Part shown: piece after piece, positions 32,883 through 64,000 of the stretch
How positions within the stretch are numbered: the stretch's first letter is position 1
Layout: each line of letters begins with the position of its first letter
Assembly (NCBI GenBank): GCA_037974665.1
Contig: CM075771.1
Coordinates: 19,069,425 to 19,133,424, forward strand
DNA from: Ehretia macrophylla
Lineage: Eukaryota; Streptophyta; Magnoliopsida; Boraginales; Ehretiaceae
Direction: 5' to 3'
DNA: 64,000 nt
Program-made: the position numbers and the translations under genes
Notes under the pieces: model-generated
The model's input: the letters and a program-made list of their open reading frames with translations, nothing else
Databases searched by the model: none
Told to the model about the DNA's origin: nothing

Positions 32883-32893
32883 TTTCTCTAGGG

Positions 32894-35800: not shown

Positions 35801-36613
35801 AAATGAAAAGCTTGCTAGGTTGATGCTTGTGTTGGCCTTGGGCCTTGAGAATTCTGAATTTGTGTCTTCAAGAAGCATAATTTGAATCATCCTAGCATGG
35901 GCAAGAGAATGGGTCGAAATTTGGTGCATTGGGGAGGGTTTTTGAGCCATTTTTTTATTGCTTTGTGTCATTAGTTGTCATAGAATTGCTATGAATGAAT
36001 TTGAATTAAGCAAGCAAGCACAAATGCACAAAAAGTGGTCGGCCAAGGCATTGCAAGAATCTGAATTTTTGTCTTGGTTGAGCAATTTTTAATTGTGTGT
36101 TTTGGATATGCAAAAGAATAAGAATGTCTAGCTTTTGGTGCAATTTCGTCTTCTAGTGAGTTGAATTGGCATTTTAATATTAGTTAGTGGAATTTGTAGG
36201 ATTAATTAATGATCTAGTGCTTCGTGTAAGATGCTTTCTTGATTAACGTGTGGGCACACTTTCCTAAGTTTAGGGCACGCACTACGAGGTAGGGCACGAA
36301 CTACAAGACAAATGCACGTTTTTCAAGTAAATGCACGCAACCCTAAATGAATGCACGTAATTCAATGCAAGACACACAAAATGAAACACGATTCTTAAAC
36401 CTAGGTCAAGGCACACAAATCTAGGTTAGGGCACATGAAACGAGGTAACGCACATCAGTCGGGGATTAGGGCACACCATTCTAGGTCAAGGCACGAATGA
36501 TGAAGCATGCACAAAAACCAAGACAGGGCACGTAATCCAAGGTCAATCATATAATTCTTGGTCTATGGCACGCAAATCGAGGTAACACACGTTATTCGGG
36601 GTCGGGCCTCACA
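32894..36613 (-). repeat. 5' LTR of the LARD-like element
   Basis: 3720 bp, nearly colinear with 26300-30017. It carries the same short-repeat zone, GA/CT tract, 209-bp duplication and GC-richer segment. Most differences from the partner LTR are C/T or G/A changes, as expected for heavily methylated DNA. Confidence 0.92.
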
Positions 36614-37215
36614 TAACGCCTTACGGATCAAAAGTTATGGGCACCGGAGCGACGGAGACCTGGTCCTAAGCCCCACGCCCTCGGTTTGCAGGCCCAGCCT
36701 CTACGTGAAGCGAAGTTGTCTTGCCCAAGGTGCCGTGGGATTCGATAATAGATATGTAATGTAATAGGTTGTTGTCCTTTTCGCAACTCACGACTTACGA
36801 TCTGGGGCAGAAAAACAGCGCAAAAGAAGAAAAGTGTCCCGAAACTGATGAAAACTTTCCATTTTGGGTTTTCAAAATAGGTGCAGCCGAGCAGGCTTGC
36901 TACCCCTATCGTAGAGCTCTCGGAGAGCTTTCCAATAGTATGTTGTACACCGCGTAACTCCTTACGGATCAAAAGTTATGGGCACCGGAGCGACGCAGAC
37001 CTGGTCTTAAGCCTGACGCCCTCGGTTTGTGGCCCCAGCCTCTACGTGAAGCGAAGTTGTCTTGCCAAAGGTACCGTGGGATTCTGTAATAGAAATTTGA
37101 TAGACTAGGTTGTCGTCCCTTTCGCGGCTCACAACGTACGATCCTGGATGGAAAACAGCGTAAAATAAGAAAAGTGTCCCAAAACTGATGAAAAAGTTCG
37201 ATTTTAAGCTCCGAA
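36614..37215 (+). repeat. Satellite fragment between LTR insertions (~1.75 monomers)
   Basis: Forward satellite that begins with the right target duplication TAACG (36614-36618), in phase with the array that ends at 26299. It runs to CTCCGAA, where the next LTR starts. Removing the element would restore a continuous monomer. Confidence 0.95.
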
Positions 37216-40200
37216 TGTTACGCCCCAACCCGACCTATAGAGGTTATACTAGGGTGTGATCTAAACATTCAAGTCATTTCACGTACCTAATCTTTCATGA
37301 AGGTTTAATACTTAACGCTTTAGCCTGAACTCCACAAATTCTCTGAAAAACCGTCAGCATAACGGCTATAATTGGGCTCTTTAGTTTGACCTAGTTTTCT
37401 AAAGGCCTCCAATCCTTCAATCTTAAATTCATTTCCAACTAAGATTACTATTTATCACCAGTCGAAACGCCTACTAGTTATCTCGAGTATTATTTGATTA
37501 ACAACCTAGCATGATACTATGTCTCGTTTGTTTATTGATCCTTGTTACAAAAGTACCTGTTGATCTTAGCCACCAATGAGTACCTGCTTTAGATTGGATA
37601 GATTCATTTTACTTAATCTCTTATTTGATACTTCATAAGCCTGTGATAGATACTAGACAGTAGCGATAGCAAAACGACCATAAGAGTATCTATCTAGTTA
37701 TGATCAGTACAAGCCAAAATTAGGCCCCAAATTACAACGGGAGTCATTTACAATACAATAACAAGCAACACACGAAATAGTCTTCAAGCAACATATCGTT
37801 CACAAAATGTTCATAGTCACGTAAGGCACGTAGGGCAAGCAATCATTCCAATGAATCATCAATAGGCACGTTGTCCTCGGGTACCTGTTCCTGGTCTTCT
37901 TCACCTGAGATGATAAAAGAGGGTGAGTCCTTATGAACTCAGCGAGGGGGAACGAGAAATAAGTTTTGAAACTCATTTTTCGGTTCAACTTGTGAAAACT
38001 CTTTTTTGCAAGCATGACATATATCGCAAGTAAGTTCATAATGTAATGTAAAAGTAAAAGAACACAATTACCCGTCTTTCCTCCCCGAGGTCCTCTAGGA
38101 ACCAAGCGAGAGTACTTATACACATAGTGAAAAGGATACGGTGAGCTTTTGCTCTCAGTTCATTTCCAGTATCAGTTGTTGCGGCCGACTTCAAATCATC
38201 CCCTTATCACGCCAAATGGGTGTACTCCGGATGTACCCCGAAATCCTACGACCCAACTCTCCGAGGAAGTCTAGCCCACAAGCGAGAGAGGGAATTGGAC
38301 AATGGTAGTCACGGTTGCACCGGCAAGCCCGATGCCGCCCGGTGTGCGTGAACGCTACCACGCCAGAATGAAAGGTTGCAACCTTGTATGCAATGCACAT
38401 TTATGACATTTAATATATCACATTAGGAGGACAACAAAGTAGGTTGTCTCCGAGCAGTCATAAGATTGCACATTGACAAGTAAACATGCGAGGCACGATA
38501 TGACAGGTAATTTCACTTATAAGCACATGGAGTTATATGAATATTAAACGGGCAGCCATGTAATGTATGTAAATCAAGTCATATAACTCATTTCGAAGTT
38601 CACGTAATCAAATAATAAGATAATTCAACATGCAACGACATCTACGTGGGACCGGGTGCAAGAAAGGCTTACTTGTCAACATGTAATCATCGGAATCATA
38701 TTTAGGGCTATAAGGGCAACTACGGGCAGCCTACTAATTACATAATTAAACACGATATTCATAGGATCAACACTTAGCGAGTTTACCTAGTCATTAGGGT
38801 TTCAATTGACGCTCACCCGTGCGATTAAGCCCTAAGTTGTCACGTAATTAAACTCAAGTCATGCATTGATTAATTCAAACACCCTCAAACATTCAAAACA
38901 GTCTACACAATATCCCGATGCCACAATCCCAAGCATTTAATACAACAAGAGAAGTTACAATAATTTTTCTAAGCATATCACGAGATGGAAACCTCACTGC
39001 AAAGGTCTGTTTTCTCACAATTATTGAGACAAGCAAACAATCTCCAATTCTAGTGAACAAAATGTCAAATTAAAGATTAAGGAGTGAACTAAATTCAGAA
39101 ACAAACCTTGCATCATTTGGAGTTCGGGTTCAAAAGTTATAGCCAAAACCGTGAGACTACACAAAACTGTCCAGATTTGCACACATTTCAATACTTGTCG
39201 TTTTTTAGGACCTTAGGGTCAGATTTAGCCTTAGTCTATTTCTGACAAAAATTTCCAGAACGGAAACATCTAGCAGCATACCAAATTTCATGCATTTTGG
39301 ATATCATTTACTAAGTTAAAACTGGTTCGTCCTACAAGGAAAGTGAATTTGCCAAAACCTGCTTCATTTTCCCAGATTTGGACACATTTTGATATTTGGC
39401 CATTTTAAGGACCTTAGAGTCAAAATTAGCTTTGGCCTATTTCTATGAAAAATTCTTATAGCTGGCAAAACTAGTCACCTACCAATTTTCAAGCATTGTA
39501 AACATCATTTACCTGGTAAAAATCACTTCGTTCCAACTGAACAGAATGCTGTCAAATATGCGATTTCACCTTTCTTCACATCCTAGCGAAATATCTTGCC
39601 ATGCATGTTTACAAAAGCTCATGTACACACATATATCACAAGTACATAGGTAAAAATAGACATTTAAAGGCATGCATGAGGTTTTTTCAAAAGCTTTTCA
39701 AGAAGTTTTAGCCCTCACCTTAGCAAGACAACAAAGAAGATCCACAAACTCTTGATGAAGCACAACGTCAACCCTTTTTCTTTGCTTAGCCGAGAGACCA
39801 CTTGATTTTCTCTAATTTCTTAGCTTAGTAAGCATGTTCTTAGTATGTGCAAGTGGCTAGAACAAAAAGAAAATAAAATGGAAGCTAACAAACTCACCTA
39901 AGCCGAAATGAAGGTTCAATGAGCTTGCATGTGTGTCTTTTGCATTCTAGCTTTGCTTGGTCGAGTTCCTAGTAGCTTGCATGTCTTGATGAACCATTGA
40001 GTGATGAACTTAAGCTATGGAGAGTAGAGTTTCAGCTAGGGCTGAGAGAGAGAGAAGAATGAGAGAAAGAATGAGAGAAAGAGAGGAAGGATGAAAGAAA
40101 AATGAAAGGCTTGAAGGAATTGATGCATATGCCGGCCTAGGGCTTGCAAATTCATATTTTTGTGTCTTCAAGGAGCATGTTTGAATCACCTAGCATGGGC

Positions 40201-40945
40201 ATGGAGTGTGTGTCGAGATTGGTGGAGCTTTGGGTAGAGTTTGAGTCATTTTTTTAATGCTTTGTGTCATAACTTGTCATAGAATGTTTAGGTACAAATT
40301 TTGAAATGCATAGCTAGTTCAATATGCAATAGTGGTCGGCCAAGCTTGTGCAAGAATCTGAATTTTTGTCTTGGTTGAGCAATTTAATATTGTGTGTTTG
40401 GGATGTGCAAAAGAATAAGGAATAAAGAATAAAGAATATCTAGCTTTTGGTGCAATTTCGTCTTCTAGTGGGTTGAATTAGCAATTTAATATTAGTTAGT
40501 GGAGTTTGTAGGATTAATTAATGATCTAGTACTTCGTATAAGATGCTTTCTTGATTAGCGTGTGGGCACATTTTCCTAGGTTTAGGACACGCACTATAAG
40601 ATAAGGCATGAACTACGAGACGAATGCACGTTTCGTAAGTAAATGTATGCAACCCGAAATGTATGCACGTAATTCAATGCAAGGCACACAAAACGAAACA
40701 CAACTGTTAAACCTAAGTGAAGGTACGCAAATCTAGGTTAGGGCACACGAAATGAGGTATCGCACACAAATCGAAGTTGGGGCACGTAAGTCAAGGATTA
40801 GGGCACATAATTCTAGGTCAAAGCACGAATGACGAGGCATGCACGAAAACCAAGACATGGCACATTATCCAAGGTCAGTCATATAATTGTAGGTCTAAGG
40901 CACGCAAATCGAGGTAACACACGTTATTCAGGGTCAGGCCTCACA
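37216..40945 (-). mobile_element. Solo LTR of the LARD-like family (copy B)
   Basis: 3730 bp with TG...CA ends, of the same family as 26300-30017 in the same orientation. No internal region adjoins it. It carries the conserved GC-richer segment at about 38050-38400 and the degenerate short repeats at its right end. The left flank is CCGAA. The right flank is only CCG before the next LTR begins, so the target duplication cannot be confirmed. A solo LTR normally results from recombination between the two LTRs of a whole element. Confidence 0.88.
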
Positions 40946-40948
40946 CCG

Positions 40949-43900
40949 TGTCACGCCCCAACCCGGCCTATAAAGGTTAGACTAGGGTGTGATCTAACAT
41001 TCAAGTCATATCACATACTTAACCGTTTATGAAGGTTTAACACTTAACATTTTGGCCTAAACTCCACAAATTCTTTAAAAACCGGCAGCATAACAGCTTT
41101 AATTGGGCTCCTTAGTTTCACCTAATTCTCTAATCGCCTCAAAATTTACAATCTCAATTCATTTCCAACTAAGATTACTATTTACCGTCAATTGAAACGC
41201 CTACTAGTTATCTCGATGTCTCATTTGATTAATAAGCTAGTATGATACTATGTCTCGTTTGTTTGGTAATGCTCGTTACAAAAGTACCTGTTGACCTTAG
41301 CTTAACAATGGGTACCTGTTTAAGATTGGATAGGTTCATTTTACTTAGTCCTTACTGGATACTTCATAATCCTATGATAGATACTAACCAGTAACAATAG
41401 GAAAACGACCATAATAGTGTCTGTCTAGTTATTATCAATACAAACCAAAATTAGACCCCAAATTACAACGGGGGTCTTTTACATTACAAACATCAAGCAA
41501 CATGAAAAGAAATAGTCTTCAAGCAGCATAGTGTTCACAAATGGCCATAATCAAGCAAAGCACATAGGACAGGCAATCATTCCAAGGAATTATCGTTAGG
41601 CACGTTGTTCTTGGGTACCTATTTTTTATCTTCTTCACCTAAGATGATAAAAGAGGGTGAGTCCTTATGAACTCAGCGAGGGGGAACGAGAAATAGGTTT
41701 GAAACTCATTTTCCGGTTCAACTTATGAAAACCCTTTTTGCAAGCATGAATATATCGCAAATAAGTACACAACAAATATAAAAGTAAAGGAACACAATTA
41801 CCCATCTTTCCTCCACCAGGTCCTCTAGGAACCAAGCGAGAGTACTTATACACATAGTGAAAAGGATACGATGAGCTTTTGCTCTCAGTTCATGTCAGTA
41901 TCAGTTATTGCGGCCGACTTCAAATCATCCCCTTATCACGCCAAATGGGTGTACTCCGGATGTGCCCCGAAATCCTACGACCCAACTCTCCAAAAAAGTC
42001 TAGCCCCCAAGCGAGAGAGGGAATTGGACAATGGCAGTCACGGTTGTACCGGCAAGCCCGATGGCGCCCAGTGCGCGTGAACGCTACCACGCCAGAATGA
42101 AAGGTTGCAACCTTGTATGCAATGCACATTTATGACATTTAATATATCACATTAGGAGGACAACAAAGTAGGTTGTCTCCGAGCAGTCATAAGATTGCAC
42201 ATTGACAAGTAAACAAGCGAGGCACGATAAGACAAGTAATTTCACTTGAAAGGCACATGGAGTTATATGAACATTAAACGGGCAGCCATGTAACGCACGT
42301 AAATCAAGTCATATAACTCATTTCAAAGTTCACGTAATCAAATAACAAGATTATTCAACATGCAACGACTTCTACATGGGACCGGGTGCAAGCAAAGCCT
42401 ACTTATCACCATCAAATCATCGAAATCATGTTTAGGGCTACAAGGGCAACTACGGGCAGCCTACTAAACACATAATCCAACACAACATCCCAAGGATCAA
42501 CACTTAGCAAATTCACCTAGTTACTAGGGTTCCAATTCGTGCTTACCCGTGCGATTAAGCCCCAAGTCATCTCAAAATCAAACTCAAGCCATGCATCGAT
42601 TGATTCAAACACCCTCAAGTATTCAAAACAGTCCACACAACATCCTAATGCCACAATCCCAAGCATTTAACACAACAAGAGAAGCTACAATAATTTTTCT
42701 AAGCATATCACTAAGTGAAACCCTCACTGAAATGGGCTGTTTTCTCACAGTCATTAAGACAAGAAAACAATCTCCAAATCCAGTGAATAAGATGTCAAAT
42801 TAAAGTTTAAGAAGTGAACTAAATTCAGAGACAAACCTCGCATCATTTGGAGTTTGGGTTCAATAGTTATAGCCAAAACAGTGGGATTACACAAAACTGT
42901 CCAGATTTGCACACATTTCAATACTTATCATTTTTGAGGTCCTTAGGATCAGATTTAGCCTTAGTCCATTTCTGACAAAAACGTCCAGAACTGAAAAATA
43001 TAGCTGCAAACCAAATTTCATTCATTTTGGATGTCATTTACTAAGTCAAAACTGGTTCGTTCCACAAGGTCAGTGAATCTGCCAAAACCTGCTTCATTTT
43101 TCCAGACTTTCCAGATTTGGATACATTTTAATGATTTGCCATTTTGAGGACCTTAGAGTCAAAATTAGCTTTGTCCTTTTTCTGCAAAAAATGTTCAGAA
43201 CTGGCAAAACTAGTGACCTAACAATTTTCACACATTTTCAACATCATTTACCTAGCCAAAATCACCTCGCACCAACAAGACAGAAAGCTGTCACATGCAC
43301 GATTTCATCTAACATCACATTCTAGCCCAAAATCTTGCCATGCATGGTTGTAAAAGCTTATGAACACACATATATCTCAAGTACAGAAGCAAAGATAAAC
43401 ATTTAAGAGCATGCATGTGGGTTTTTTGAAATATTTTCAAGAAGTTTTTAGCCCTCACCTTAGCAAAACAACAAGAAGATGCACAAGACTCTTGGTGAAG
43501 CACAAAGTTGATCTTCTTCCTTGCTTAGCCGAGACACCACTCGATTTTCTCTATTTTTCCTAGCTTAGTGACCAAGTTCTTAGTAGATGCATGTGGTTAG
43601 AACAAGAAGAAAAGAAATGGAAGCTAGCAAACTCACCTAAGCCGAAATGGTTGTTCAAAGAGCTTGCATGTGAGTTTTCTTGCAACCTAGCTTGCTTAGT
43701 CGAGTTCCCTACCTTCTTGCTTGCCTTGATTAACCATGGAGTGATGAAGATGAGCTATGGAGCATAGGAACTCAGCCAAAGCCGAGAGAAAGAGAGAAGA
43801 ATGAGAGGGAGAGAGAGAAATGTGAGGAAATGAGAGAAATGAAAGAAAAATAGAAGCTTGTGCAATTGTTGAGGCTTGTGTCGGCCTTGGGCATGTAAAA

Positions 43901-44538
43901 ATCAGATTTGTGTCTTCAAGAAGCATGGTTTTTGAATTACCTAGCATGGCAAGGAGCTTATGTCGAGATTGGTGGAGTTTGGTAGAGTTTTGAGCTAGTT
44001 TTTTTATGCATTTGTGTCATAACTTGTCATAGAATTGTCTAGAATTAATTTTGAATTGAGCAAGCAAGCATAAATGCCACAAGGTGGTCGGCCAAGGCAT
44101 GAAAATGCTGAATCTTTGTCATCTTTTGATCATTAATTAATTGTATGTTTGAAAGTGTAAAAGAATAAGGAATAAAAAATAAGGAATGTTTAGCTTTTTG
44201 TGAGATTTTATCTTCTAGTGGGTTGAATTAGTAATTTAATATTAGTTAGTGGAATTTGTAGGATTAATTATTGATCTAGTGCTTCTTGTAAGATACTTTC
44301 TAGATTAACGTGAGGGCACACTTTCCTAGGTCTAGGGCACGTACTACGAGGTAGGGCATGAACTACGAGACGAATGCACGTTTTTTAAGTAAATGCACGC
44401 AACCCTAAATGAATGCACGTAATTCAATGCAAGGCACATAAAATGAAACACGATTCTTAAACCTAGGTTAAGGCACGCAAATCTAGGTTTGGGCACACGA
44501 AATGAGGTATCACACGTAAATCGAGGTCGGGCCTCACA
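40949..44538 (-). mobile_element. Solo LTR of the LARD-like family (copy C)
   Basis: 3590 bp, same orientation as copy B and separated from it by only three bases (CCG). Its short-repeat end is the shorter form, also seen in the copy at 51687-55253, which suggests a subfamily. The right flank is GCAGC of the satellite. No matching left duplication remains. Confidence 0.88.
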
Positions 44539-44571
44539 GCAGCCGAGAAGGCTTGCTGTCCCGGTCGTAGA
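44539..44571 (+). repeat. 33-bp satellite remnant between two solo LTRs
   Basis: Reads GCAGCCGAGAAGGC onwards to GTCGTAGA, the middle of a forward monomer. The last five bases, GTAGA, are the left target duplication of the next LTR. Confidence 0.93.
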
Positions 44572-45055
44572 TGTGAGGCCCGACCCTGAATAATGTGTGT
44601 TACCTTGATTTATGTGCCATAGACCAAGAATTATATGACTAACATTGGATTACGTGCCCTGTCTTGGTTTTCGTGCATGCTTCGTCATTTGTGCCTTGAC
44701 CTAGAATGGTGTACCCTAATCCTCGATTGACGTGCGATACCTAGATATATATACCCTAGCCTCGATGTACGTGCGTTACCTCGTTTCGTGTGCCCTAACC
44801 TTAAATTGGGTACCTTAACCTAGATATAGAGTCGTGCCTTGATTTGTGTGCATTGCATTGAATTACGTGCCTTGCATTGGTTTACGTGCATTCACCTAGG
44901 ATTGTGTGCATTAGTCTTGAAGTACATGCCTTAGTCTTGAAGTTCGTGTCTTATCTCGTAGTTCGTGTCTACCTCATGATTCGTGGCCCGTATTGAATTA
45001 TGTGCCTGTCTCGTAGTGCGTGTCCTAGACCTAGGAAAGCGTACCTGCACGCTAA
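44572..45055 (+). repeat. U3 short-repeat zone, longest copy
   Basis: At least fifteen degenerate units of about 20-24 bp built on CGTGCNTTRNNTNGNNT, for example GTGCCTTGACCTAGAATG and GTGCCCTAACCTTAAATTG. This is the clearest copy of the zone in the window. Confidence 0.6.
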
Positions 45056-48000
45056 TCAATAAAAAATCCCACGCAAAGCACTAAACACTAAAATAATTAT
45101 TTACAATCCACTAACTAATATTATATTCCTAATTCAAATTCTCTACAAAACCCACTAACTAATAAAATAATCTATTCTTCCCAACACACTCAACTAACCA
45201 ATAAACTATTATAAACCTACACTTATTATAATCCAAAATACACTACCTTGAATCTGAAATTTCAGATTTTCCCTTGCATTACACGACCAAGACAAAACAA
45301 TTTGATCAACTTTGCACAATTAAATTAAAGCCTAGACATTCTATGACACATGCACTAAGCACAATGCATAAAAAATTCACCTACATCCTACCCAAGCATC
45401 TCATTTTCGATCCTCTCAATGCCATGCTTAATTTCAACTCAAAAAATGCTTAAAGGATGACACAATTTCAGAATTTAGAAGCTCAAGGCTGACACACAAG
45501 CACATGCTCACAAACAACTCTTCAAACACTCATTTTTCTCTCAAAACTCTCTCATTCTCTCTCCTTCTCTCTCTATTTCGACCATGGCTGCCTCTTAACC
45601 TTCCAAGACCTCAAGCATGCTCTCAAGACTCTCCCAAGCTCAGCCATAGCAGCCCAAAGCAAGGAAGAAGCTCCCTTTATGCATTTTGAAGAGTATTTGT
45701 GCTCATTTGCTAAATCTTCAAGAGGTGAGGGTTAATCCTTTTTAAAAAGCTTTCAAAAACCACATGCAAGGCTTCATATGTCTATATTTACCTCTGTAAT
45801 TGTGATATATGTATGCACTTGAGCTTTTGTAACCATGCATGGCAAGATATTTGGCTAGAACTTGAAGATAGGACGAATCGCGAAATCTGAGCAATTTTCT
45901 GACTTGTTGGGGCGAAGCGAATTTGGCCAGGTAAATGATATTGCAAATGCGTGAAAATTGGTAGGTGACTCGTTTTGCCAGTTTTGAACATTTTTCACAG
46001 AAATAGGCCAAAGCTAATTTTGATTCTAAGGTCCTCAAAATGGAAAAATATCAAAATGTGTCCAAATCTGGAAAATCTGGGAAAATGAAGCAGGTTTTGG
46101 CAGATTCACTGTTCTTGTAGAACGAATCGGTTTTGGCTTAATAAATGACATCCAAAATGAATTAAATTTAGTGTGCTACTATATTTTTCAGTTCTGGACA
46201 TTTTTGTCAGAAATGGACTAAGGCTAAATCTGACCCTAAAGCCCTCAGAAATGACAAGTATTGAAATGTGTGCAAATCTGGACACTTTTGTGTAGTCTCA
46301 TGGTTTTGGCTATAACTCTTGAACCCGAACTCCAAATGATGCGAGGTTTCTTTCTGAATTTAGTTCACTCCTTAAGATTTAATTTGACATCTTGTTCACT
46401 GGAATTCGAGATTGTTTGCTTGTCTCAATGATTGTGAGAAAATAGTCCATTGCAGTGAGGGTTTCACCTATTGATATGCTTAGAAAAATTATTGTAGCTT
46501 CTCTTGTTGTATTAAATGCTTGGGATTGTGGCATTTGGATGTTGTGTGGACTGTTTTGAATGCTTGAGGGTGTTTGAATTAATCAATGCATGGCTTGAGC
46601 TTAATTACGAGATGAGTTGGGGCTTAATCGCACAGGTAAGCACGAATTGAAACCTTAATAACTAGGTAAACTCGCTAAGTGTTGATCCTATGGATATCGT
46701 GTTTAATTATGTGATTAGTAGGCTGTCCGTAGTTTTCCTTGTAGCCCTAAATATGATTTCGATGATTACATGTTGATAAGTAGGCCTTTCTTGCACCCGT
46801 TCCCACGTAGACGTCGTTGCATGATGAATAATCTTATAATTTGATTACGTGAACTTCAAATGAGTTATATGACTTGATTTACATGCGTTACATGGCTGCC
46901 CGTTTAATATTCATATAACTCCATGTGCTTTTCAAGTGAAATTGCCTATCATATTATGCTTCGCGTGTTTAACTGTCAATGTGCAATCTTATGACTGCTC
47001 AGAGGAAACCTACTTTGTTGTCCTCCTAATGTGATATATTAAATGTCATAAATGTGTATTGCATACAATGTTGCAACCTTTCATTCTGGCTTGGTAGCGT
47101 TCACGCACACCGGGCGGCATCGGGCTTACCGGTACAACCGTGACTACCATTGTCCAATTTTTTCTCTCGCTTGGGGGCTATACTTCCTCGGAGAGTTGGG
47201 TCGTAGGATTTTGGGGTACATCCGGAGTACACCCATTTGGCGTGATAAGGGGATGATTTGAAGTCGGCCGCAACAACTGATACTGGAATAGAACTGAGAG
47301 CAAAAGCTCACCGTATCCTTTTCACTATGTGTATAAGTACTCTCACTTGGTTCCTTGAGGACCTCGGGGAGGAAAGACGGGTAATTGTGTTTCTTTACTT
47401 TTATATTACGTTATATACTTACTTGTGTTATATGTCATGCTTTCAAAAAGGGTTTTTCATAAGTTAACAAGAAAAAGAGTTTCAAAACGTATTTCTCGTT
47501 TCCCCCTCGCTGAGTTCATAAGGACTCACCTTCTTTTATCATCTCAAGTGAAGAAAACCAGGAACAGGTACCCGAGGATAACGTTCTTATTGATGACTCC
47601 TTGGAGTAATTGTTTGCCCTACGTGCTTTATTTGTCTATGGCCATTTTGTGAACGATATGTTGCTTTGAAGACTATTTCTTATGTTACTTGTTGTCGTTA
47701 TTGTAAATGACCCCCGTTGTAATTTGGGGTCTAATTTTGATTTGTACCGATATTAACTAGACAGACGCCCTATTTGCTCGTTTTGCTACTTTGATTGGTA
47801 ACTACTGCAGGCTTATGAAGTACTAGATAAGAGTTAAGTAAAATGAATCTATCTAATCTTAAGCAGGTACTCATTGGTAAGCTAAGATCAACAAGTACTT
47901 TTGTAACAGGGATTGACAAACAAACGAGACATAGTTACCATGCTAGGTTGTTAATCGAACGAGACTTCGAAATAACTAGTAGGCATTTCAATTGGTGATA

Positions 48001-48234
48001 AATAGTCATCTTAGTTGAAATCGAATTTGAGATTGAAAGTTTTGAGGCGTTTAGGAAATTAGGTCAAACAAATGAGCCAATTATAGCCGTTATGCTGCCG
48101 GTTTTTTGAAGAATTTTGGAGTTCTAGGCTAACGTTAAGCGTTAAACCTTAATGAACGATTAAGTACGTGAAATGATATGAATGTGTAGATCACACCCTA
48201 GTCTAACCTCTATAGGTCGGGTTGGGGCGTGACA
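44572..48234 (+). mobile_element. Solo LTR of the LARD-like family (copy D)
   Basis: 3663 bp on the plus strand, starting TGTGAGGCCCGACC and ending TTGGGGCGTGACA. It is flanked by a perfect target duplication GTAGA (44567-44571 and 48235-48239), so it is a clean solo LTR. In this orientation the order of parts is easy to read: short repeats to about 45055, a CT-rich tract at about 45535-45580, GGTGAGGG at about 45724, the 209-bp duplication at about 45900-46320, a stem-loop at 47092-47149, and the GC-richer segment up to about 47400. Confidence 0.93.
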
Positions 48235-51200
48235 GTAGAGCTCTCAGAGAGCTTTTCAACGGTATGCTGCGCGCCGTGTAACTCCTTACGGATCAAAAGT
48301 TATGGGCACCGGAGCGATGGAGACCTGGTCCTAAGCCTTATGCCCTCGGTGTACAGGCCCAGCCTCTACATGAAGCGAAGTTGTCTTGCCCAAGGTGGCA
48401 TGGGATTGAGTAAAAGAAATGTGATGGATTGGGTTGTTGTCCTTTTCGCGACTCACGACGTACGATCCAGGACGGAAAAACAGCGCAAAAGAAGAAAAGT
48501 GTCCCGAAACTGATGAAAATGTTCGATTTTGGGCTCCAAAAATAGGGGCAGCAAAGCAGGCTTACTACCCCTATTGTAGAGCTCTCAGATAGATTTCCAA
48601 TGGCATGCTGTGCACCGCGTAACTCCCTACGGATCAAAAGTTATGAGCACAGGAGCGATGGAGACCAGGTCCCAAGCCCTACGCCCTCGGTTTACGGTCC
48701 CAGCCTCTACGTGAGGTGAAGTTGTCTTGCCTAAGGTGCCATGGGATTCGGTAATAGAAGTGTGATGGATTAGGTTGTTGTCATTTTCGCGGCTCACGAC
48801 GTACGATCCGGGACGGAAAAATAACGCAAAAGAAGAAATGTGTCCAGAAATTGATGAAAACGTTCGATTTTGGGCTCTAAAAATAGGCGCAGACAAGCAA
48901 GCTTAATGCCCCTGCCGTAGAGCTCTCGGAGAGCTTTCCAACGATATGTTGTGCGCCGCGTAACTCCTTACGAATCAAAAGTTATGGGCACCGAAGTGAC
49001 GGAGACTTCGTCTAAATCCCCACACCCTCGGTTTGCGAGCACAACCTCTTTGTGAGGCGAAGTTGTTTTGCCCAAGGTGCCGAGGGATTCGGTAATAGAA
49101 ATTTGATGGATTAGGTTGTCGTCCTTTTCGCAGCTCACGACGTACGATCCGGGACGGAAAAACAATGCAAAATGAGAAAAGTTTCCAAAAACTAATGAAA
49201 ATGTTCGATTTTGGGCCCAGAAACCAAGCGCAGCTGAGCAGGCTTGCTACCTCTTTCGTAGAGCTCTCGGAGAGCTTTCCAACAGTATGCTGTGCCCTGC
49301 ATAACTTCTTACGGATCGAAAGTTATGGGCACCGAAGCGACGGAGACCTAGTCTCAAGCCCTATGCCCTTGGTTTTCAGGCCCAGCCGCTACGTGAAGCG
49401 AAGTTTTCTTGCCTAGGGTGGCGTGGGATTCGGTAATAGAAATGTGATGGATTAGCTTGTCGTCCTTTTCGTGGCTCACGACGTACGAACCGGGACGGAA
49501 AAATAGCGCAAAAGTAGAAAAGTGTCCAGAAATTGATGAAAACGTCCGAGTTTGGGCTCCGAAAACAGGCATAGCTGAGCAGGCTTGCTGCCCCCGTCGT
49601 AGAGCTCTCGGAGAGCTCTCCAACGGCATGTTGTGCGCCGCGTAACTCTTTACAGATCAAAAGTTATGGGCACCGGAGCGACGGAGACCTGGTCCTAAGC
49701 CTTACGCCCTCGATTTGCGGGCGCAGCCTCTACGTGAATCGAAGTTGTCTTGTACAAGTTTCCATGGGATTCGGTAATAGAAATGTGATGGATTAGGTTG
49801 TCGTCCTTTTCATGGCTCATGACGTACGATACGGGACGGAAAAATAGCGCAAAAGAAGGAAAATGTCCCGAAACTGATGAAAATGTTCAATTATGGGCTC
49901 TGAAAATAGACGCAACTGAGTAGACTAGCTGCCCACGTCGTAGAGCTCTCAGAGACCTTTCCAATGGTATGCTGTGCGCCGTGTAACTCCTTACGGATCA
50001 AAATTTATGGGCAACGGATCGATGGAGACCTGGTCCATAGCCCCACGCCCTCAGTTTGCAAGCCCAGCCTCTACGTGAAACGAAGTTGTCTTGCCCAATA
50101 TGGCATGGGATTTGGTAATAGAAATGTGATGGAATAGGTTGTTGTCCTTTTCGCGGCTCACGACGTACAATCCGGGATGGAAAAACAGCGCAAATGAAGA
50201 AATATGTCCAGAAATTGATGAAAACGTTCGATTTTGGACTCCGAAAATAGGCGCAGCCGAGCAGGGTTGATGCCAATGTCGTAGAGCTCTCGAAGAGCTT
50301 TCCAACGGTATGTTGTGCGCTGCATAACTCCTTATGGATCAAAAGTTATGGGCACCGGAGCGACGGAGACTTGGTCCTAAGCCCCACGCCCCCAGTTTGC
50401 GGGCCCAGCCTCTACGTGAAGCGAAGTTGTCTTGCCCAAGGTGGCATGGGATTCGGTAATAGAAATGTGATGGATTAGGTTGTCGTCCTTTTCGCGGCTC
50501 ACGACGTACGATCTGGGAAAGAAAAACAGTGCAAAAGAAGAAAAGTGTCCAGAAATTGATGAAAACGTTCGAGTTTAGCGATCTAAAATAGGCGCAGCCG
50601 AGCAGGCTTGCTGTTCGCGTCGTAGATCTCTCGGAGATATTTCCAACGGTATGCTGTGCGTCGCGTAACTCCTTATGGATCAAAAGTTATGGGCACCGGA
50701 ACGACAGAGACCTGGTCCTAAGCCTTATGCCCTCGGTGTACGGGCCCAGCCTCTACGTGAAGCGAAGTTGTCTTGCCCAAGGTGGCATAGGATTCTGTAA
50801 TAGAAATGTGATGGATTAGGCTATCGTCCTTTTTGCGGCTCACGACCTACGATCCAGGACGGAAAAACAGTGCCAAAGAAGAAAAATGTCCCGAAACTGA
50901 TGAAAATGTTCAATTTTGGTCTCCGAAAATAGGTGCAGCCCAGCAAGCTTGCTGCCCCCATCGTAGAGCACTCCAAGAGCTTTCCAACAGTATACTGTGC
51001 ACCGCGTAACTCCTTACGGATCAAAAGTTATGGGCACCGGAGCGACAGAGACCTGGTCCTAAGCCCCACGCCCTCAATTTGCGGGCCCAGCCTCTACGTG
51101 AAGCGAAGTCGTCTTGCCCAAGCATGGGATTCAGAAATAGAAATGTAATGGATTAGGTTGTCATCCTTTTCGCAGCTCACGACGTACGATCGTGGACGGA

Positions 51201-51686
51201 AAAACATTGCAAAAGAAGAAAAGTGTCCCGAAACTAATGAAAACGTTTGATTTTGGGCTCCGAAAATAGGTGCAACCAAGCAGGCTTGCTGCCCCCGTCG
51301 TAGAGCTCTAGGAGAGCTTTCCAACGGTATGTTGTGCGCCGCGTAAGTCCTTACGGATCAAAAGTTATGGGCACCGGAGTGAGGGAGACCTGGTCCTAAG
51401 CCCCACGCCCTCGATTTGCGGGCCCAGCCTCTACGTGAAGCAAAGTTGTCTTGCCCAAGGTGGTGTGGGATTCGGTAATAGAAATGTGATGGATTAGCTT
51501 GTCGTCCTTTTCACGGCTCACGACGTACGACCCGGGACGGAAAAACAGTGCATAAGAAGAAAAGTGTCTAGAAACTGATGAAAATGTTCGAGTTTGGGCT
51601 CCGAACACAGGCGCAGCCGAGCAGGCTTGTTGCCCCCGTCGTAGAGCTCTCGGAGAGCTTTCCAACGGTATGCTATGCGCCGCGTA
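48235..51686 (+). repeat. Satellite block, ~10 monomers
   Basis: Forward satellite that continues the array. It begins with the right target duplication GTAGA of copy D and ends with GCGTA, the left duplication of copy E. Near 51121 one monomer is shortened by loss of a few bases (CCCAAGCATGGG). No inverted monomers are seen here. Confidence 0.95.
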
Positions 51687-54600
51687 TGTGAGGCCTGACC
51701 TCGATTTACGTGCGATATCTCTTTTTGTGTGCCCTAATCTAGATTTTTGTGCCTTGACCTAGGTTTAAGAGTCGTGTTTCTTTTTGTGTGCCTTGCATTG
51801 AATTATGTGCATACATTTAGGGTTTCGTGCATTTACTTGAAAAACGTGCATTCATCTTGTAATTCGTGCCTTACCTCATAGTGCGTGCCCTAAACCTAAG
51901 AAAGTGTGCCTGCACGCTAATCAAGAAAGCATCTTACACGAAGCACTAAATCATTAATTAATCCTACAAACTCCACTAGCTAATATTAAAATGCTAAGTC
52001 AACTAACTAGAAGACGAAATCTCACAAAAAGGTAGACATTCTTATTCTTTATTCCTATTCTTTTGCATATTCCAAGCACTCAATTAAGTAATGGTCAAAA
52101 GATGACAAAAATTCAGAATTTTGCAAGCCTTGGCCGACCACCTCTTGCATTTGTGCATGCATTGCAATTTCAAAAATTAAATCTAGACATCCTATGACAA
52201 GCTCATGACAAATCACTTCAAAAAAATGCACAAAAAAATGAAACCAAAGCTCCATATTCTCGACACACACTCAATTGCCCATGCTAAGGATTCAAATTAT
52301 GCTCCTTGAAGACACAAATTCTGAAATTTCAAGGCCCTAGGCCGACACATGCATCAAAAGTTCCTCAAGCTTTCATTCTTTCTCACATTCTCTCATTCTT
52401 TCTCTCATTTTTTCTCTCTCTCTCTCTCGGCCCTAGCTGAAATTTTACTCTCCATAGCTTAAGTTCTTCATCCAAAGGTTCTTCAAGACATGCAAGCTAC
52501 TAGGAAGCTCGACCAAGCAAGCTAGAATGCAAAAGTTACACATGCAAGCTCATAGAACCTTCATCTCGGCTTAGGTAAGTTTGATAGCACCTATTTCATT
52601 TTCTTTTTGTTCTAACCACATGCACCTACTAAGAACATGGTTACTAAGCTAGAAAATTAGAGAATCTCAAGTTGTCTCTCGGCTAAGCAAGGAAAAAGGT
52701 CGACATTGTGCTTCATCAAGAGTTTGTGCATCTTCTTTGTTGTCTTGCTAAGGTGAGGGCTAAAACTTCTTTGAAAAGCTTCAAAAAACCACATCCATGC
52801 CTTTAAATGTCTATTTTTACTTCTGTACTTTTGATATATGGGTGTATTTGAACTTTTGTAAACATGCATGGCAAGATATTTGGCTAGAATGTGAAGATAG
52901 GTGAAATTGCGTATTTGCCAGCTTTCTGTTCTGTTAGAACGAAGTGATTTTGACCAGGTAAATGATGTTGAAAAAGTGTAAAAATTGGTAGGTGACTAGT
53001 TTTTCCAGTTATAAGCATTTTTCACAGAAATAGGCCAAAGCTAATTTTGACTCTAAGGTCCCCAAAATGGCAAAACATCGAAAAGTGTCCAAATCTGGAA
53101 AATCTGGAAAAATGAAGCAGGTTTTGGGCAGATTCACTGTCCTTGTAGAACGAACCAGTTTTGACTTAGTTAGTAATATCCAAAATGTAAAAGTGGTATG
53201 CTAATAGATGTTTCAGTTCTGGACAGTTTTGTCAGAAATAGACTAAGGCTAAATCTGACCCTAAGGTCCTAAAAAACGACAAGCATTGAAATGTGTACAA
53301 ATCTGAACAGTTTTGCATAGTCTCACGGTTTTAGCTATAACTCTTGAACCCGAACTCCAAATGATGCAAGGTTTGTTTCTGGATTTAGTTCACTCCTTAA
53401 GATTTAATTTGACATTTTGTTCACTGGAATTGGATATTGTTTTCTTGTCTCAATGATTGTGAGAAAACAGACCATTGCAGTGTGGTTTTCATATAGTGAA
53501 AGGATTTTAAAATTATTGTAAATTCTCTTGTTGTATTAAATTCTTAGGATTGTGGCACTTGGATGTTGTGTGGACTGTTTTGAATGCTTGAGGGTGTTAT
53601 AATTACTCGATGCATGGCTTGAGTTTATTTACTTGACAACTTAGGGTTTAATCGCACGGATAAGCATGAATTAAAAACCTAGTGACTAGGTAAACTCGCT
53701 AAGTGTTGATCCTATGGATATCGCGTTTAATTATGTGATTAGTAGGCTGCCCGTAGTTGCCCTTATAGCCCTAAATGTTGTTCCGATGGTGACATGTTGA
53801 CAAGTAGGCCTTTCTTGCACCCGGTCCCACGTAAACGTCGTTGCATGTTGTATGACCTTATTATTTGATTTCGTGAACTTCGAAATGAGTTATATGACTT
53901 GATTTACATGGCTGCCCGTTTAATATTCATATAACTCCATGTGCTTTACAAGTGAAATTACTTGTCATATCGTGCCTCGCTTGTTTACTTGTTAATGTGC
54001 AATCTTATGACTGTTTGGAGGCAACCTACTTTGTTTTCCTCCTAATGTGATATATTAAATGTCATAAATGTGCATTGCATACAAGGTTGCAACCTTTCAT
54101 TCTGGCGTGGTAGCGTTCACGTACACCGGGCGGCATCAGGCTTGCCGGTGCAACCGTGACTACCATTGTCTAATTCCCTCTCTCGCTTGGGGACTAGACT
54201 TCCTCGGAGAGTTGGGTCGTAGGATTTCGGGGTACATCCGAAGTACACCCATTTGGCGTGACAAGGGGATGATTTGAAGTCGGCCGCAACAACTGATACT
54301 GGAAATGAACTGAGAGCAAAAGCTCACCGTATCCTTTTCACTATGTGTATAAGTACTCTTGCTTGGTTCCTAGAGGACCTCGGGGAGGAAAGATGGGTAA
54401 TTGTGTTATTTTACTTTTACATTACATTACGAACTTACTTGTGATATATGTCATGCTTGCAAAAAGAGTTTTCATAAGTTGAACCGGAAAAAGAGTTTCA
54501 AAACTTATTTCTCGTTCCCCCTCGCTGAGTTCATAAGGACTCACCCTTTTTTATCATCTCAGGTAAAGAAGACCAGGAACAGGTACCCGAGGACAACGTG

Positions 54601-55253
54601 CCTAACGATGATTCCTTGGAATGATTGTTTGCCCTACGTGCCTTACATGATTATGACCATTTTGTGAACGATATGTTGCTTGAAGACTATTTCTTTTATG
54701 TTACTTCTTGTTGTAATGTAAAAGACCCCCGTTGTAATTTGCGGTCTAATTTTAGCTTGTACTGATCATAACTAGATAGATACTCTTATGGTCATTTTTG
54801 CTATCGCTACTGGCTAGTTTCTATCATAGGATTATGAAGTATCAGGTAAGGATTAAGTAAAATGAATCTATCTAATCTTAAGCAGGTACTCATTGTTAAG
54901 CTAAGACCAACAGGTACTTGTAACAAGGATTAACAAACAAATGAGAAATAGATATCATGCTAGACTGTTAATCAAACGAGACTTCGAGACAACTAGTAGG
55001 CGTTTCAATTGATGATAAATAGTAACCTTAGTTGGAAATGAATTTGAGATTGAAAGTTTTGAGGCCTTTAGAAAATTAGGTCAAACTAAGGAGCCCAATT
55101 ACATCCATTATACTGCCAGTTTTCTGGAGAATTTGTGGAGTTTAGGCTAAAACGTTAAGTGTTAACTTTGATGAACGATTAAGTACGTGATATGACTTGA
55201 ATGTTTAGATCACACCCTAGTCTAACCTTTATAGGTCGGGTTGGGGCGTGACA
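51687..55253 (+). mobile_element. Solo LTR of the LARD-like family (copy E)
   Basis: 3567 bp on the plus strand, flanked by a perfect target duplication GCGTA (51682-51686 and 55254-55258). Its short-repeat end resembles that of copy C. The CT tract is at about 52375-52430, AGGTGAGGG at about 52751, and the stem-loop at 54108-54165. No internal region is present. Confidence 0.93.
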
Positions 55254-55530
55254 GCGTAACTCCTTACGGATCAAAAGTTATGGGCACCGGAGCGACGGAG
55301 ACCTGGTCCTAAGCCCCACGCCCTCGGTTTGCGGCCCCAGCCTCTACGGGTAGTGAAGTTGTCTTGCCTAAGGTGGCGTAAGATTTGTTAATAGAAATGT
55401 GATGGTTTAGGTTGTCGTCCTTTTCGCGGCTCACGACTTACGATCCAAGACAGAAAGACAGAGTAAAAGAATAAAAGTGGCTCGAAACTGATGAAAACGT
55501 TCGATTTTGGGCTCCAAAAATAGGCGTAGC
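55254..55530 (+). repeat. Satellite fragment between LTRs (277 bp)
   Basis: Part of a forward monomer from GCGTAACTCC to AGGCGTAGC, bounded by the duplications of the LTRs on each side. Confidence 0.94.
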
Positions 55531-59068: not shown

Positions 59069-62000
59069 GCAACAAAGTAGGCTTATTGCCCCGGTCGTAG
59101 AGCTCTCAAAGAGCTTTCCAACGGTATGCTGTGCGCCGCGTAACTCCTTACGGATCAAAAGTTATGGGCACCGGAGCGACGGAGACCTGGTCCTAAGCCC
59201 CACGCCCTCGGTTTGCGGGCCTAGCCTCTACGTGAAGCGAAGTTGTCTTGCCCAAGGTGGCATGGGATTCGGTAATAGAAATGTGATGGATTAGGTTGTT
59301 GTCCTTTTCGCGGCTCACGACGTACGATCAGGGACGAAAAAACAACGCAAAAGAAGAAAAGTGTCCAAAAATTGATGAAAATGTTCAATTTTGGGGTCTG
59401 AAAATAGGCGCAGCCAAACAAGCTTACTGTCCACGTTGTAGAGCTCTTAGAGAGCTTTCCAATGGCATGCTGTGTGCCTCGTAACTCCTTACGGATCAAA
59501 TGTTATGGGCACCAGAGCAACGGAGACCTGGTCCTAAGCCCCACGCCCTCAGTTTGCGGGTCCAGCCTCTATGTGAAGCGAAGTTGTCTAGCCCAAGGTG
59601 GCGTGGGATTCAGTAATAGAAATGTGATGGATTAGGTTCTCATCCTTTTCGCGGCTCACGACGTACGATCCGGGATGAAAAAACAGTGCAAAAGAAGAAA
59701 AGTGTCTCAAAACTGAAGAAAATGTTCGATTTTGGGCTCCGAAAATAGGAGCAGCCAAGCAAGCTTGCTGCACCCATCGTAGAGCTCTCAGAGAGCTTTC
59801 CAATGGTATGTTGTGCGCCGCGCAACTCCTTACGGATCAAAAGTTATGGGCACCAGAGCGACGGAGACCTGGTCCTAAGCCCTACGCCCTCGGTTTGCGG
59901 GCCCAGCCTCTACGTGAAGCGAAGTTTTCTTGCCCAAGCGTGGGATTCGATAATAGAAATGTGATGGATTAGGTTGTCGTCCTTTTCGCGGCTCACAACG
60001 TACGATCGGGGACGAAAAACAGCGCAAAGGAAGAAAAGTGTCCCGAAACTGATAAAAACATTTGATTTTGGGCTCCGAAAATAGCCGCAGCTGAGTAGGC
60101 TTGCTGCCCCAGTTGTAGAGCTCTCGGGGAGCTTTCCAACGGTATGATGTGGGCCGCGTAACTTCTTACGGATCAAAAGTTATGGGCACCGGAGCGACGG
60201 AGGCCTGGTCCCAAGCCCCACGCCCTCAGTTTGCGGGCCCAGCCTCTGGGTGAAGTGAAGTTGTCTTGACTAAGGTGCCATGGGATTTGGTAAAAAAAAT
60301 GTGATAGATTAGGTTGTCGTCCTTTTCGCGGCTCACGACGTACGATCCAGGACGGAAAAACAGAGCAAAAGAAGAAAAGTGTCCCAAAAATGAACGAAAC
60401 GTTCGATTTTGGGCACTGAAAAAAGGTGTAGCCAACCAAGCTTGATGCCTCTATCGTAGAGCTATCGGAGAGCTTTCCAACGGTATGCTGTGCACTACGT
60501 AACTCCTTACGGATCAAAAGTTATGGGCACCGGAGCGACAGAGACCTGGTCCTAAGCCCCACGCCCTCGGTCTGCAGGCCCAGCCTCTACGTGAAGCGAC
60601 GTCATTTTGCCCAAGCGTGGGATTCAGCAATAGAAAAGTAATGGATTAGGTTGTCGTCCTTTTCGAGGCTTACGACGTACGATCGGGGACGGAAAATCAG
60701 TGCAAAAGAAGAAAAGTGTCCCGAAAGTGATTAAAATGTTCGATTTTAGGTTCTGAAAATAGGCGCAATCAAGCAGGCTTGCTACCCTCGTTGTAGAGCT
60801 TTTGGAGAGCTTTCCAACGGTATGCTTTACGTCACGTAACTCCTTACGGATCAAAAGTTATGGGCACCGGAGCGACGGAGACCTGGTTCTATGCCCCACG
60901 CCCTCGGTTTGCAGGCCCAGCCTCCACGTGAAGCGAAGTTGTCTTGCCCAAGGTAGTGTGGGATTCGGTAATAGAAATGTGATGGATTATGTTATCGTCC
61001 TTCTCGCGGATCACGACGTACGAACCGGGACGAAAACATAGCGCAAAAGAAGATAAGTGTCCCAAAACTGTTGAAAACATTCGATTTTGGGCTCTGAGAA
61101 CAAGCGCAGCTGAGCAAGCTTGTTTCCCAAGTTGTAGAGCTCTCGGAGTGCTTTCCGACGGTATGCTGTGCGCCGCGTAACTCCTTACGGATCAAAAGTT
61201 ATGGGCACCGAAACGACGGAGACCTGGTCCTAAGCCCCACGCCTTAGGTTTGCAGCCCCAGCCTCTATGGGAAGTGAAGTTGTCTTGCCCAAGGTACTGT
61301 GGGATTTGATAATAGAAATGTGATGGATTAGGTTGTCGTCCTTTTCGTCAATCACGATGTACGATCCAGGACGAAAATACAGCGCAAAAGTAGAAAAGTG
61401 TCCCAAAATGGATGAAAACGTTCGATTTTGGGCTCCGAAAATAGGCGCAACCGAGCAGGCTTGCTTCCCCTGTCGTAGAGCTCTCGGAGATCTTTCCAAC
61501 GGTATGCTGTGCGCCGCGTTATTCCTTACGAATCAAAAGTTATGGGCACCAGAGCGACGGAGACCTTGTTACAAGCCCCACGCCCTCGATTTGCGGGCCC
61601 AGCCTCTACGTGAATCGAAGTTGTCTTGCCCAAGGTGCTGTGGGATTCGGTAATAGAAATGTGATGGATTAGGTTGTCGTCCTTTTTGCGGCTCACGACG
61701 TACGATCTGGGACAGAAAAACAGCACAAAAGAAGAAAAGTGCCTAGAAACTGATGAAAACGTTCAATTTTGGGGTCCAAAAATATGCGCAGCCGAACATG
61801 ATTGCTGCCCCCGTCGTAGATCTCTCGGAGAGTTTTCCAACAGCATGCTATGCACCGCGTAACTCCTTACGAATCAAAAGTTATGGGCAGTGGAGCGAGG
61901 GAGACCTGGTCCTAAGCCCCACGCCCTTAGTTTGCGGGCCCAGCCTCTACGTGAAGCGAAGTTGTCTTGCCCAAGGTGTTGTGGGATTCGATAATAGAAA

Positions 62001-62345
62001 TTTGATGGATTAGGTTGTCATCCTTTTCGCGGCTCACAACGTACGATCCGGAACGGAAAAACAGCACAAAAGAAGAAAAGTGTCCCGAAACTGATGGAAA
62101 CGTTCGATTTTGGGATCCGAAAATAGGCGCAGCCGAGCAGGCATGTTTCCCCCGTCGTAGAGCTCTCGGAGAGCTTTCCAATAGTATGCTGTGCGCCGCG
62201 TAACTTCTTACGAATCCAAAGTTATGGGCACTGGAGCGACAGAGACCTGGTCCTAAGCCCCACGCCCTTGGTTTGCGGACCCAGTCTCTACGTGAAACAA
62301 AGTTGTCTTGCCCAAGGTGGCATGGGATTCGGTAATAGAAATGTG
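59069..62345 (+). repeat. Last satellite block, ~9.6 monomers
   Basis: Forward satellite that ends abruptly at GAAATGTG, where 5S rDNA upstream sequence begins. The break lies within about six bases of the monomer boundary defined by the copy in the 5S spacer. A few monomers have small losses, for example CCCAAGCGTGGG near 59936 and 60610. Confidence 0.95.
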
Positions 62346-62438
62346 TCGATAAGCCCATTGGGCCTTTTGAATGAGCTGCATCTCTGGGCTGGGACTGTGA
62401 ACCGTCAACACATAAAGCCTTTGCCTACTTAATATGAC
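62346..62438 (+). promoter_or_regulatory. 5S rDNA upstream control region, copy 1
   Basis: About 93 bp directly before the 5S gene. It is nearly repeated at 63026-63114, which marks it as a conserved part of the 5S unit; shared motifs include CTCTGGGCTGGGACTGTG and CCGTCAACACATAA. Plant 5S genes use a TATA-like box near -28, GC near -12 and C at -1. Here ATAAAG lies at about -27 to -22, GC at about -16/-15, and C at -1. Confidence 0.75.
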
Positions 62439-62557
62439 AGGTGCGATCATCCCAGCACTAATGCAATGGATCCCATCAGAACTCCGAAGTTAAGCGTGGT
62501 TGGGCGAGAGTAGTACTAGGATGGGTGACACCCTGGGAAGTCCTCGTGTTGCACCCC
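62439..62557 (+). rRNA. 5S rRNA gene copy, divergent, possibly a pseudogene
   Basis: A full-length 119-nt match to plant 5S rRNA, the small RNA of the large ribosomal subunit transcribed by RNA polymerase III. Recognisable motifs are GGATCCCATCAGAACTCCG, AGTTAAGCGTG, GGGCGAGAGTAGTACTAGG and GGGAAGTCCTCGTGTTGC. The internal promoter covers box A at about 62488-62503 and box C at about 62518-62535. Against the usual plant sequence as I remember it, about eight bases differ: at 62439, 62451, 62466, 62467, 62487, 62499 (inside box A), 62530 and 62531 (inside box C). That is a lot for a gene that is normally almost invariant, so this may be a decaying edge copy. The T-rich terminator and upstream region are intact, so activity cannot be excluded. 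Confidence 0.9.
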
Positions 62558-62580
62558 CTATTCGTTTTGTTTTTTTAACC
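62558..62580 (+). terminator. Pol III T-tract terminator after the 5S gene
   Basis: A run of four T and then one of seven T (62565-62576), within twenty bases of the 5S 3' end, as expected for an RNA polymerase III terminator. Confidence 0.82.
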
Positions 62581-62606
62581 CCGTTCAGCCTTGCCAAGTT
62601 CCTTCT

Positions 62607-62946
62607 TCCATCACATTTCTGTTCTTGAGTCTCACAGTATCTTGGCAAGACAACTTCATTTCGCGTAGATGCTGGACCAACAAACCGAGGGCGTGGGGCT
62701 TGTGACCAGGTTTCCGTCGCACTGGTGCCCATAACTTTTGATCCGTAAGAAGTTATGCGGGGCACAGTATATCGTTAGAAAGCTCTCCTGGAGCTCTACG
62801 ATGGGGGCAGCAAGCATGCTCGGCTGCGTCTATTTTGGAACCCAAAATCGAACGTTTTTATCAGCTTCGGGCCATTTTTTTCCTTTTTGTGCTACTTTTT
62901 CATCCCGGGTTGTTCATAGTGAGTCGCGAAAAGGACGACAACCTAA
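62607..62946 (-). repeat. One satellite monomer inside the 5S spacer
   Basis: 340 bp aligning end to end with one monomer of the main satellite in reverse orientation, starting at TCCATCACATTTCT and ending at GACGACAACCTAA. Shared blocks include GACAACTTCA, AAACCGAGGGCGTGGGGCTT, TGCCCATAACTTTTGATCCG, GGGGGCAGCAAGC and CGCGAAAAGGACGACAACC. Divergence is roughly 15-20% by eye. It contains no part of the 5S gene. It is exactly one period long and is followed by unrelated spacer. Confidence 0.93.
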
Positions 62947-63025
62947 CTCGCGAGACATTAGAGGGCCCTACAATGCGTCGATATCACGTCTAGCGAGGAT
63001 GCTGCATTGTTGAAGCAGATGAGTT
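62947..63025. other. Unique part of the 5S spacer
   Basis: About 79 bp between the satellite-like monomer and the second upstream control region. I do not see it elsewhere in the window. It includes GGGCCCT and a short inverted motif around TGCATTGTTGAAGCAGATGA. No function is assigned. Confidence 0.6.
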
Positions 63026-63114
63026 GTCAATAAGCCTATTGAGCCTTTTGAATGGGCCATTCTCTGGGCTGGGACTGTGTACCGTCAACACATAAGGGCT
63101 TTGCACACTCAACA
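63026..63114 (+). promoter_or_regulatory. 5S rDNA upstream control region, copy 2, with no 5S gene after it
   Basis: Matches 62346-62438 nearly throughout (GTCAATAAGCC, GAGCCTTTTGAATGGG, CTCTGGGCTGGGACTGTG, CCGTCAACACATAA). This defines a 5S unit of about 680 bp. The match ends at AACATG, two or three bases before the expected 5S start. Unrelated sequence follows, so the next gene has been displaced or lost. Confidence 0.8.
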
Positions 63115-63435
63115 TGTAAATCTCGACACGAGAATCTATATATAATTTTAGTGTTCATAGTGCATTCATATCATTTAATAAGCAATAGCAATAATTAATA
63201 AGCATTAATATCATTTAACGTGCATATTCATCGTTTTATGTGCCAAAATGTTCAATTACGTGCATTATTGAGTTTTACGTGTTGTAGGCATTAATTGTAC
63301 TCAAATAAGTCATGAGTAGTATCTAATTAGTTGTAATTGAACCAAAATGGCAAACTAGCAAAACATGACTTAGTTGGAGGGCACTCTCGTCATTTGCCCT
63401 CTTGATATTTGTTCACCGCTATTCACTCCCACTCA

Positions 63436-63519
63436 AAACACACACAAACACACAAATACACACACAAAAACACTACACACACACCCACACGTTTTCAGCA
63501 TACACACACATATATACAT
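63436..63519. repeat. AC-rich microsatellite
   Basis: Imperfect (AC)n mixed with AAAC and ACACCC units. A 123-codon frame that crosses it is rich in His/Thr and then Glu/Arg because of this tract and the GAA tract that follows. Confidence 0.85.
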
Positions 63520-63528
63520 AACAAGCTT

Positions 63529-63590
63529 GAGAAGAGAGGAAGAAGAAGAAGAAGAAGAAAGAAGAGAGAAAGAGGAAGGGAAGAAGCTTG
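63529..63590. repeat. GAA/GA-rich microsatellite
   Basis: Repeated GAAGAAGAA followed by GAGAGAAAGAGG. It resembles in place and type the GA/CT tract of the first LTR family. Confidence 0.85.
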
Positions 63591-64000
63591 CTCAAGCCTT
63601 TCGTAGTCATTTTCGAGATTTTGCTTACATTCTACAACCTTGGTCTTGCAAAACTATCACTTTGGAGGTGAGGGATTCTTTAAAACTCTTTTTAAATGCT
63701 CATTCAAGATTACATAATGCTGATTTGGTGTTAATATTGTTATAGCTTGCGTATCTAAGCTTGGATAAGGAGATTAAGTATTTTGTGTGTTGTAGAACTA
63801 GGACTTGCTTAATTTGTGAATTGATGAACTTGAGAAATCGAGAGGTGGGCTTGGTGTTGCTCAATTTGTGTGTAAAAGTTAGGAGCATGAAGTTAGTATT
63901 TAGCGTTTGGAGGTTGATTTTGATGTTGTGTGTGATGTTGAATTCTTGGTAAGTTGGTAGTTGATTGTAGGTATAGAAGGTTTTGGTTGAGGTTTGAACC

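Follow-up and report, generated by a model that had tools for sequence, protein, structure and literature searches.

How did a complete satellite monomer come to stand in the spacer of a 5S ribosomal RNA (rRNA) gene, beside a long array of the same satellite that contains no such gene? The question arises in Ehretia macrophylla, in a stretch of 64,000 nucleotides of contig CM075771.1 (assembly GCA_037974665.1, positions 19,069,425 to 19,133,424), which we call the window and number from its first base. The locus looks like a relic of plant 5S ribosomal DNA (rDNA) that borders a gene-free array of a 341-bp satellite. A first-pass annotation had offered two directions, a 5S spacer amplified into a satellite or a satellite monomer placed in the spacer. 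Both survive our analysis, and the second is slightly preferred.

The 5S unit is built in the order upstream region (U), 5S gene, post-gene segment (T), reversed satellite monomer, non-satellite spacer (X) and next upstream region, with a period of 681 bp. All parts except the monomer lie on the forward strand. The first upstream region, U1 (62344-62438), with CATAAA at -28 to -23 and C at -1, directly abuts the array, whose forward-orientation satellite reaches 62345. It leads into the 5S rRNA gene (62439 to about 62558; Rfam match 62439-62557, 89 bits), which is of plant type and probably decayed. T (62559-62606, 48 bp) contains TTTTGTTTTTTT, a T-rich terminator of the RNA polymerase III (Pol III) type. 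The spacer monomer, complete at 340 bp, occupies 62607-62946 on the reverse strand, opposite to the adjoining array. X (62947-63024, 78 bp) has no satellite similarity, and U2 (63025-63116) is a second copy of the upstream region, 85% identical to U1. The first-pass annotation correctly saw one full monomer after the 5S terminator, but let it run directly up to the next upstream region, where X intervenes. The segment it singled out begins at 62346, 2 bp within the U1 homology, and ends at 63114, 2 bp before the U2 homology ends; this homology stops 3-5 bp short of the expected start of the next 5S gene. Without the monomer, the 5S unit is complete at 341 bp, with terminator, a 221-bp spacer and upstream region all kept, and the monomer is therefore dispensable to the layout. 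The length of this monomer-free unit (62344-63025) equals the satellite period, yet the two have no detectable sequence similarity; the equality perhaps reflects a two-nucleosome length or chance.

The homology between the spacer segment and the satellite, also claimed in the first-pass annotation, is far beyond chance. Aligned to the array consensus, the segment has a score of 404, compared with 12-16 for U, 5S, T and X. Shuffled versions of these four reach maxima of 22-30, so the real segments are no better than shuffled ones, and a derivation of the monomer from the 5S unit is unsupported. By the same comparison of 5S with the consensus, no 5S gene sequence was found within the monomer, and no half-monomer repeat was found in the satellite. 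Under strict scoring, the spacer copy aligns to consensus positions 1-341, one whole period. With two laxer scorings the match runs beyond the segment on to its flanks and covers 352 and 419 consensus positions. The flanks gain only 0-12 in this way, which 73 to 200 of 200 shuffled flanks equal, whereas 106 bp of genuine satellite would have raised the lax score by 147. No satellite is detectable in the flanks by these lax scorings, and since the extension is no more than shuffled flanks give, the spacer segment is a unit-length copy. The description of the neighbour as an array of about 34 kb made of the same monomer without the 5S gene holds as well: the satellite totals 33,899 bp, and neither a further Rfam 5S match at E<=1 nor a second 5S gene is visible in the window. 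The suggestion that the monomer had become fixed in the 5S spacer goes too far, as the window offers one 5S gene and about 1.1 units, in a decayed-looking state.

The spacer copy is also more divergent than any monomer of the array. We compared it with 90 full-length array monomers, partial monomers at breaks being excluded. Its identity to the array consensus is 84.7%, below all 90 (86.2-94.1%, mean 90.4%), and its mean pairwise identity to array monomers is 78.7%, against 83.6% among the array monomers themselves. The excess lies in two classes of difference. The spacer copy has nine T>C-type differences, where the array monomers have a mean of 2.2 and a maximum of 7 (Poisson tail 0.00045), and 19 non-CpG C>T-type differences, where the array mean is 8.9 and the maximum 17 (Poisson tail 0.0022). 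Its CpG-type and transversion differences are ordinary, being equalled by 42 and 27 of the 90 array monomers, respectively. Such an excess is poorly accounted for by decay alone; the T>C excess is expected if the founder of the array fixed changes that the spacer copy lacks. The spacer copy has no close relative in the array by the sharing of rare variants: it shares at most three with any array monomer, and a best of two or three is found in 51 of the 90 array monomers. In a star-like tree its end branch is the longest (0.17 vs a median of 0.089). Three array monomers join it in the tree (97/72, inner branch 0.012), a weak grouping from a bootstrap that had not settled, with little backing from rare-variant sharing. 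The corrected distances are 0.251 between spacer copy and array and 0.185 within the array, which, if rates are equal, would place the spacer split about one third earlier than the radiation of the array. The spacer copy was probably not taken from the array next door in recent times; it may represent a lineage that separated earlier than the radiation of the array monomers, or another subfamily.

The 5S gene next to the monomer appears to have aged as well. Compared with universal plant 5S oligos, which we took from one table passage of PMC11901598, the gene matches at 102 of 109 positions and differs at seven. Six of the seven mismatches fall in the first 30 bases of the gene. The seventh, presumably, is located in the A-box region. 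We assign the gene to the plant type because of this fit and because its 23-mer CATCAGAACTCCGAAGTTAAGCG also appears in five plant papers. Measured as a functional tandem 5S rDNA, the locus offers one complete gene; its mismatches to the oligos, together with the 85% identity of the U copies, make it look like a decayed relic, as judged against universal oligos rather than the functional 5S of the species. The gene may be inactive.

Our preferred explanation, which we rate at an even chance, is an ancient entry of one unit-length copy of the satellite into a 5S unit that was otherwise complete at 341 bp. We prefer it because no part of the unit is lost when the monomer is taken away and because the jumper satellite of Phaseolus has been described likewise. 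One unit-length copy, for example a one-monomer circle, might have recombined into the unit before the present array monomers diverged, comparable to jumper. The spacer monomer would then have decayed jointly with the 5S copy, while LTR (long terminal repeat) retrotransposons would have split the array and, probably, the 5S unit that follows. Several points weigh against this explanation. An outlying, older spacer copy is also predicted by the reverse direction. Faster decay of the spacer copy could give part of its excess of differences, though the T>C excess fits this poorly. Inspection by eye shows no target-site duplication of more than 2 bp flanking the monomer. Because the window holds a single spacer copy, the tree cannot be rooted, and its bootstrap is unsettled. 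Finally, the nine monomers nearest the 5S gene are slightly more similar to the spacer copy than the other 81 (0.799 vs 0.786; p=0.019, not adjusted for the number of comparisons, or 0.014 after a correction), a hint of some local connection.

The reverse direction, in which 341 bp of gene-free 5S spacer gave rise by amplification, perhaps via a circle, to the satellite array, is a possible but less favoured account. In that case the array of about one hundred monomers would descend from one spacer stretch, and at its edge there would remain a relic of the kind of unit from which it arose. The account explains at once why the segment is exactly one monomer, which would necessarily be so. It also suits a spacer copy that lies outside the array variation with excess differences in both directions, as well as the closeness of the monomers nearest the 5S gene. 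The array ends no more than 5 bp from the monomer boundary (336 vs 341/1, in a phase numbering defined by the spacer copy itself), for which the chance is about 0.03, calculated post hoc. In addition, satellites are known to originate from rRNA gene spacers, from plant 35S spacers according to PMC8724763 and from spacers in general according to PMC12692304. However, the array adjoins U1 rather than T or X and is oriented opposite to the spacer copy, and therefore no simple in-place expansion can have taken place. The completeness of the 5S unit without the segment also speaks against the spacer as the source.

It is rather improbable that the arrangement is a local accident, in which a rearrangement at the satellite/5S junction put a monomer into one decayed unit while ordinary 5S arrays lack it. 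The single spacer seen, the decayed look of the gene and the presence of other inversions in the array would agree with such an event. The excess differences of the spacer copy disfavour a recent copy from the neighbouring array, although an old accident is compatible with them. A Cassandra-like or other terminal-repeat retrotransposon in miniature (TRIM), whose terminal repeats would be U1 and U2 and whose interior would carry the 5S gene, is very improbable and was rejected: U1 and U2 are indeed direct repeats of about 92 bp beginning with TGT, but the 5S gene sits between them and not inside them, where the Cassandra criterion places a 5S-like region, they match only each other in the window, the U end is a normal 5S promoter position, the flanks AAATG and TGTAA/TAAAT form no target-site duplication by eye, and what we take to be the initiator-tRNA primer-binding motif, the only tRNA tried, is absent after U1 (best 5 of 12 positions mismatched, random mean 5.6).

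The array itself (1-62345, forward strand with two reverse-strand blocks, final base at phase 336/341) is gene-free and is broken up by LTR-type insertions of one family, with an LTR of about 3.6-3.7 kb. Its satellite lies in five stretches (1-26298, 36614-37215, 48235-51686, 55254-55530 and 59076-62345), with an extra 33-bp fragment at 44539-44571. The first insertion (26300-36613) contains an interior and a pair of LTRs, each of about 3.7 kb, that are 93.6% identical. The second (37216-48234) has three LTR-length or partial copies with the 33-bp satellite fragment between them; the third (51687-55253) and fourth (55531 to about 59068) are apparent solo LTRs. No open reading frame of at least 150 amino acids with an ATG, GTG or TTG start was found within these insertions. 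The satellite phase picks up again within a few bases across three of the four breaks. At the break of 37216-48234, 35 satellite bases are missing, mostly present in the 33-bp fragment. Target-site duplications are readable at the first break (TAACG) and the third (GCGTA); no exact one was found at the fourth, and none was established at the second. The reverse-strand blocks (1419-2749 and 9235-10571, 1.33 kb each) go back to a single old inversion that was duplicated at a lag of about 7.82 kb, with 87% identity over 4,018 aligned bases.

Among the 90 array monomers, the most conserved 20-mer is ATTCGGTAATAGAAATGTGA, at phase 318-337 (for example ending at 62345); it is found beside the end of the array at 62345 and also beside the edge of the spacer monomer that faces the gene. 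Six satellite strings, representing four sites, two of them also reverse-complemented, were absent from the main texts of an open library, a search that leaves most subscription papers and supplements outside. Satellite patterns found no match in contig collections (two in the viral, one in the genome collection), the 5S core pattern none in either collection, and the 5S region none in plasmids and phages. A 17-base U pattern matched one viral contig (L001); BLAST at 1e-3 gave no alignment between this contig and the window, and we regard the match as chance.

On the other side of the 5S unit, the forward-strand sequence at 63115-64000 begins with TGTAAATCTCGAC and, from reading the sequence alone, is probably the start of an LTR retrotransposon, of which no other copy occurs within the 64-kb window. 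Such an LTR at 63115 would probably part U2 from its own 5S gene. Yeast Ty3 inserts at Pol III genes, and if the LTR is real, its insertion position (63105-63125) resembles that of Ty3, as a single case whose far side lies beyond the window.

Satellites linked to rDNA are known from several systems. Okra has satellites derived from the 35S spacer (PMC10809672), and in Hieracium a satellite lies near the 5S locus, outside its spacer (PMC7667050); we count neither as a precedent. One review calls satellite amplification within plant 5S loci rare (PMC8724763). The frog satellite PcP190, to which the first-pass annotation had compared the present one, is likewise 5S rDNA-related, and the parallel stops there: PcP190 has a 120-bp region like the 5S transcribed region (PMC11675491), whereas the present satellite shares only the spacer segment. 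PLsatB of Plantago lagopus also comes from a plant, has a comparable length of 325 bp and is related to the 5S unit and spacer (PMC6410184, PMC11202950), but it includes 5S gene fragments (PMC6410184), and the present satellite has no 5S similarity. With a monomer that carries no 5S gene sequence, our satellite falls outside this 5S-gene-derived class. TfSat of Tribolium freemani is close to the present case: this satellite serves as the 5S spacer and forms longer arrays with sparser 5S genes, interrupted by retrotransposons (PMC11202950). TfSat differs in belonging to an insect, in its monomers, which measure 71 and 122 bp and stand one to ten in a row, and in being reported, in that source, only with 5S genes; its interrupting elements are Jockey-like, whereas those of the present array are LTR-type. 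Jumper is reported to have invaded the 5S rDNA of the genus Phaseolus (Ribeiro et al. 2017 as quoted in PMC8724763), with a single monomer in the 5S spacer and many copies outside the 5S loci. Our locus has the same two features, a complete monomer between the 5S terminator and the next upstream region and a gene-free array outside the 5S unit. It differs in its 341-bp satellite (170 bp in jumper), in its one decayed-looking unit and in the directly adjoining array. With jumper and TfSat already in print, the present locus is a further case of a known arrangement. Given the genome of the species and those of relatives, it could serve to test in which direction rDNA spacers and satellites exchange sequence. 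It is another instance of a 5S spacer physically tied to a long gene-free satellite, here in a plant that has the two side by side.
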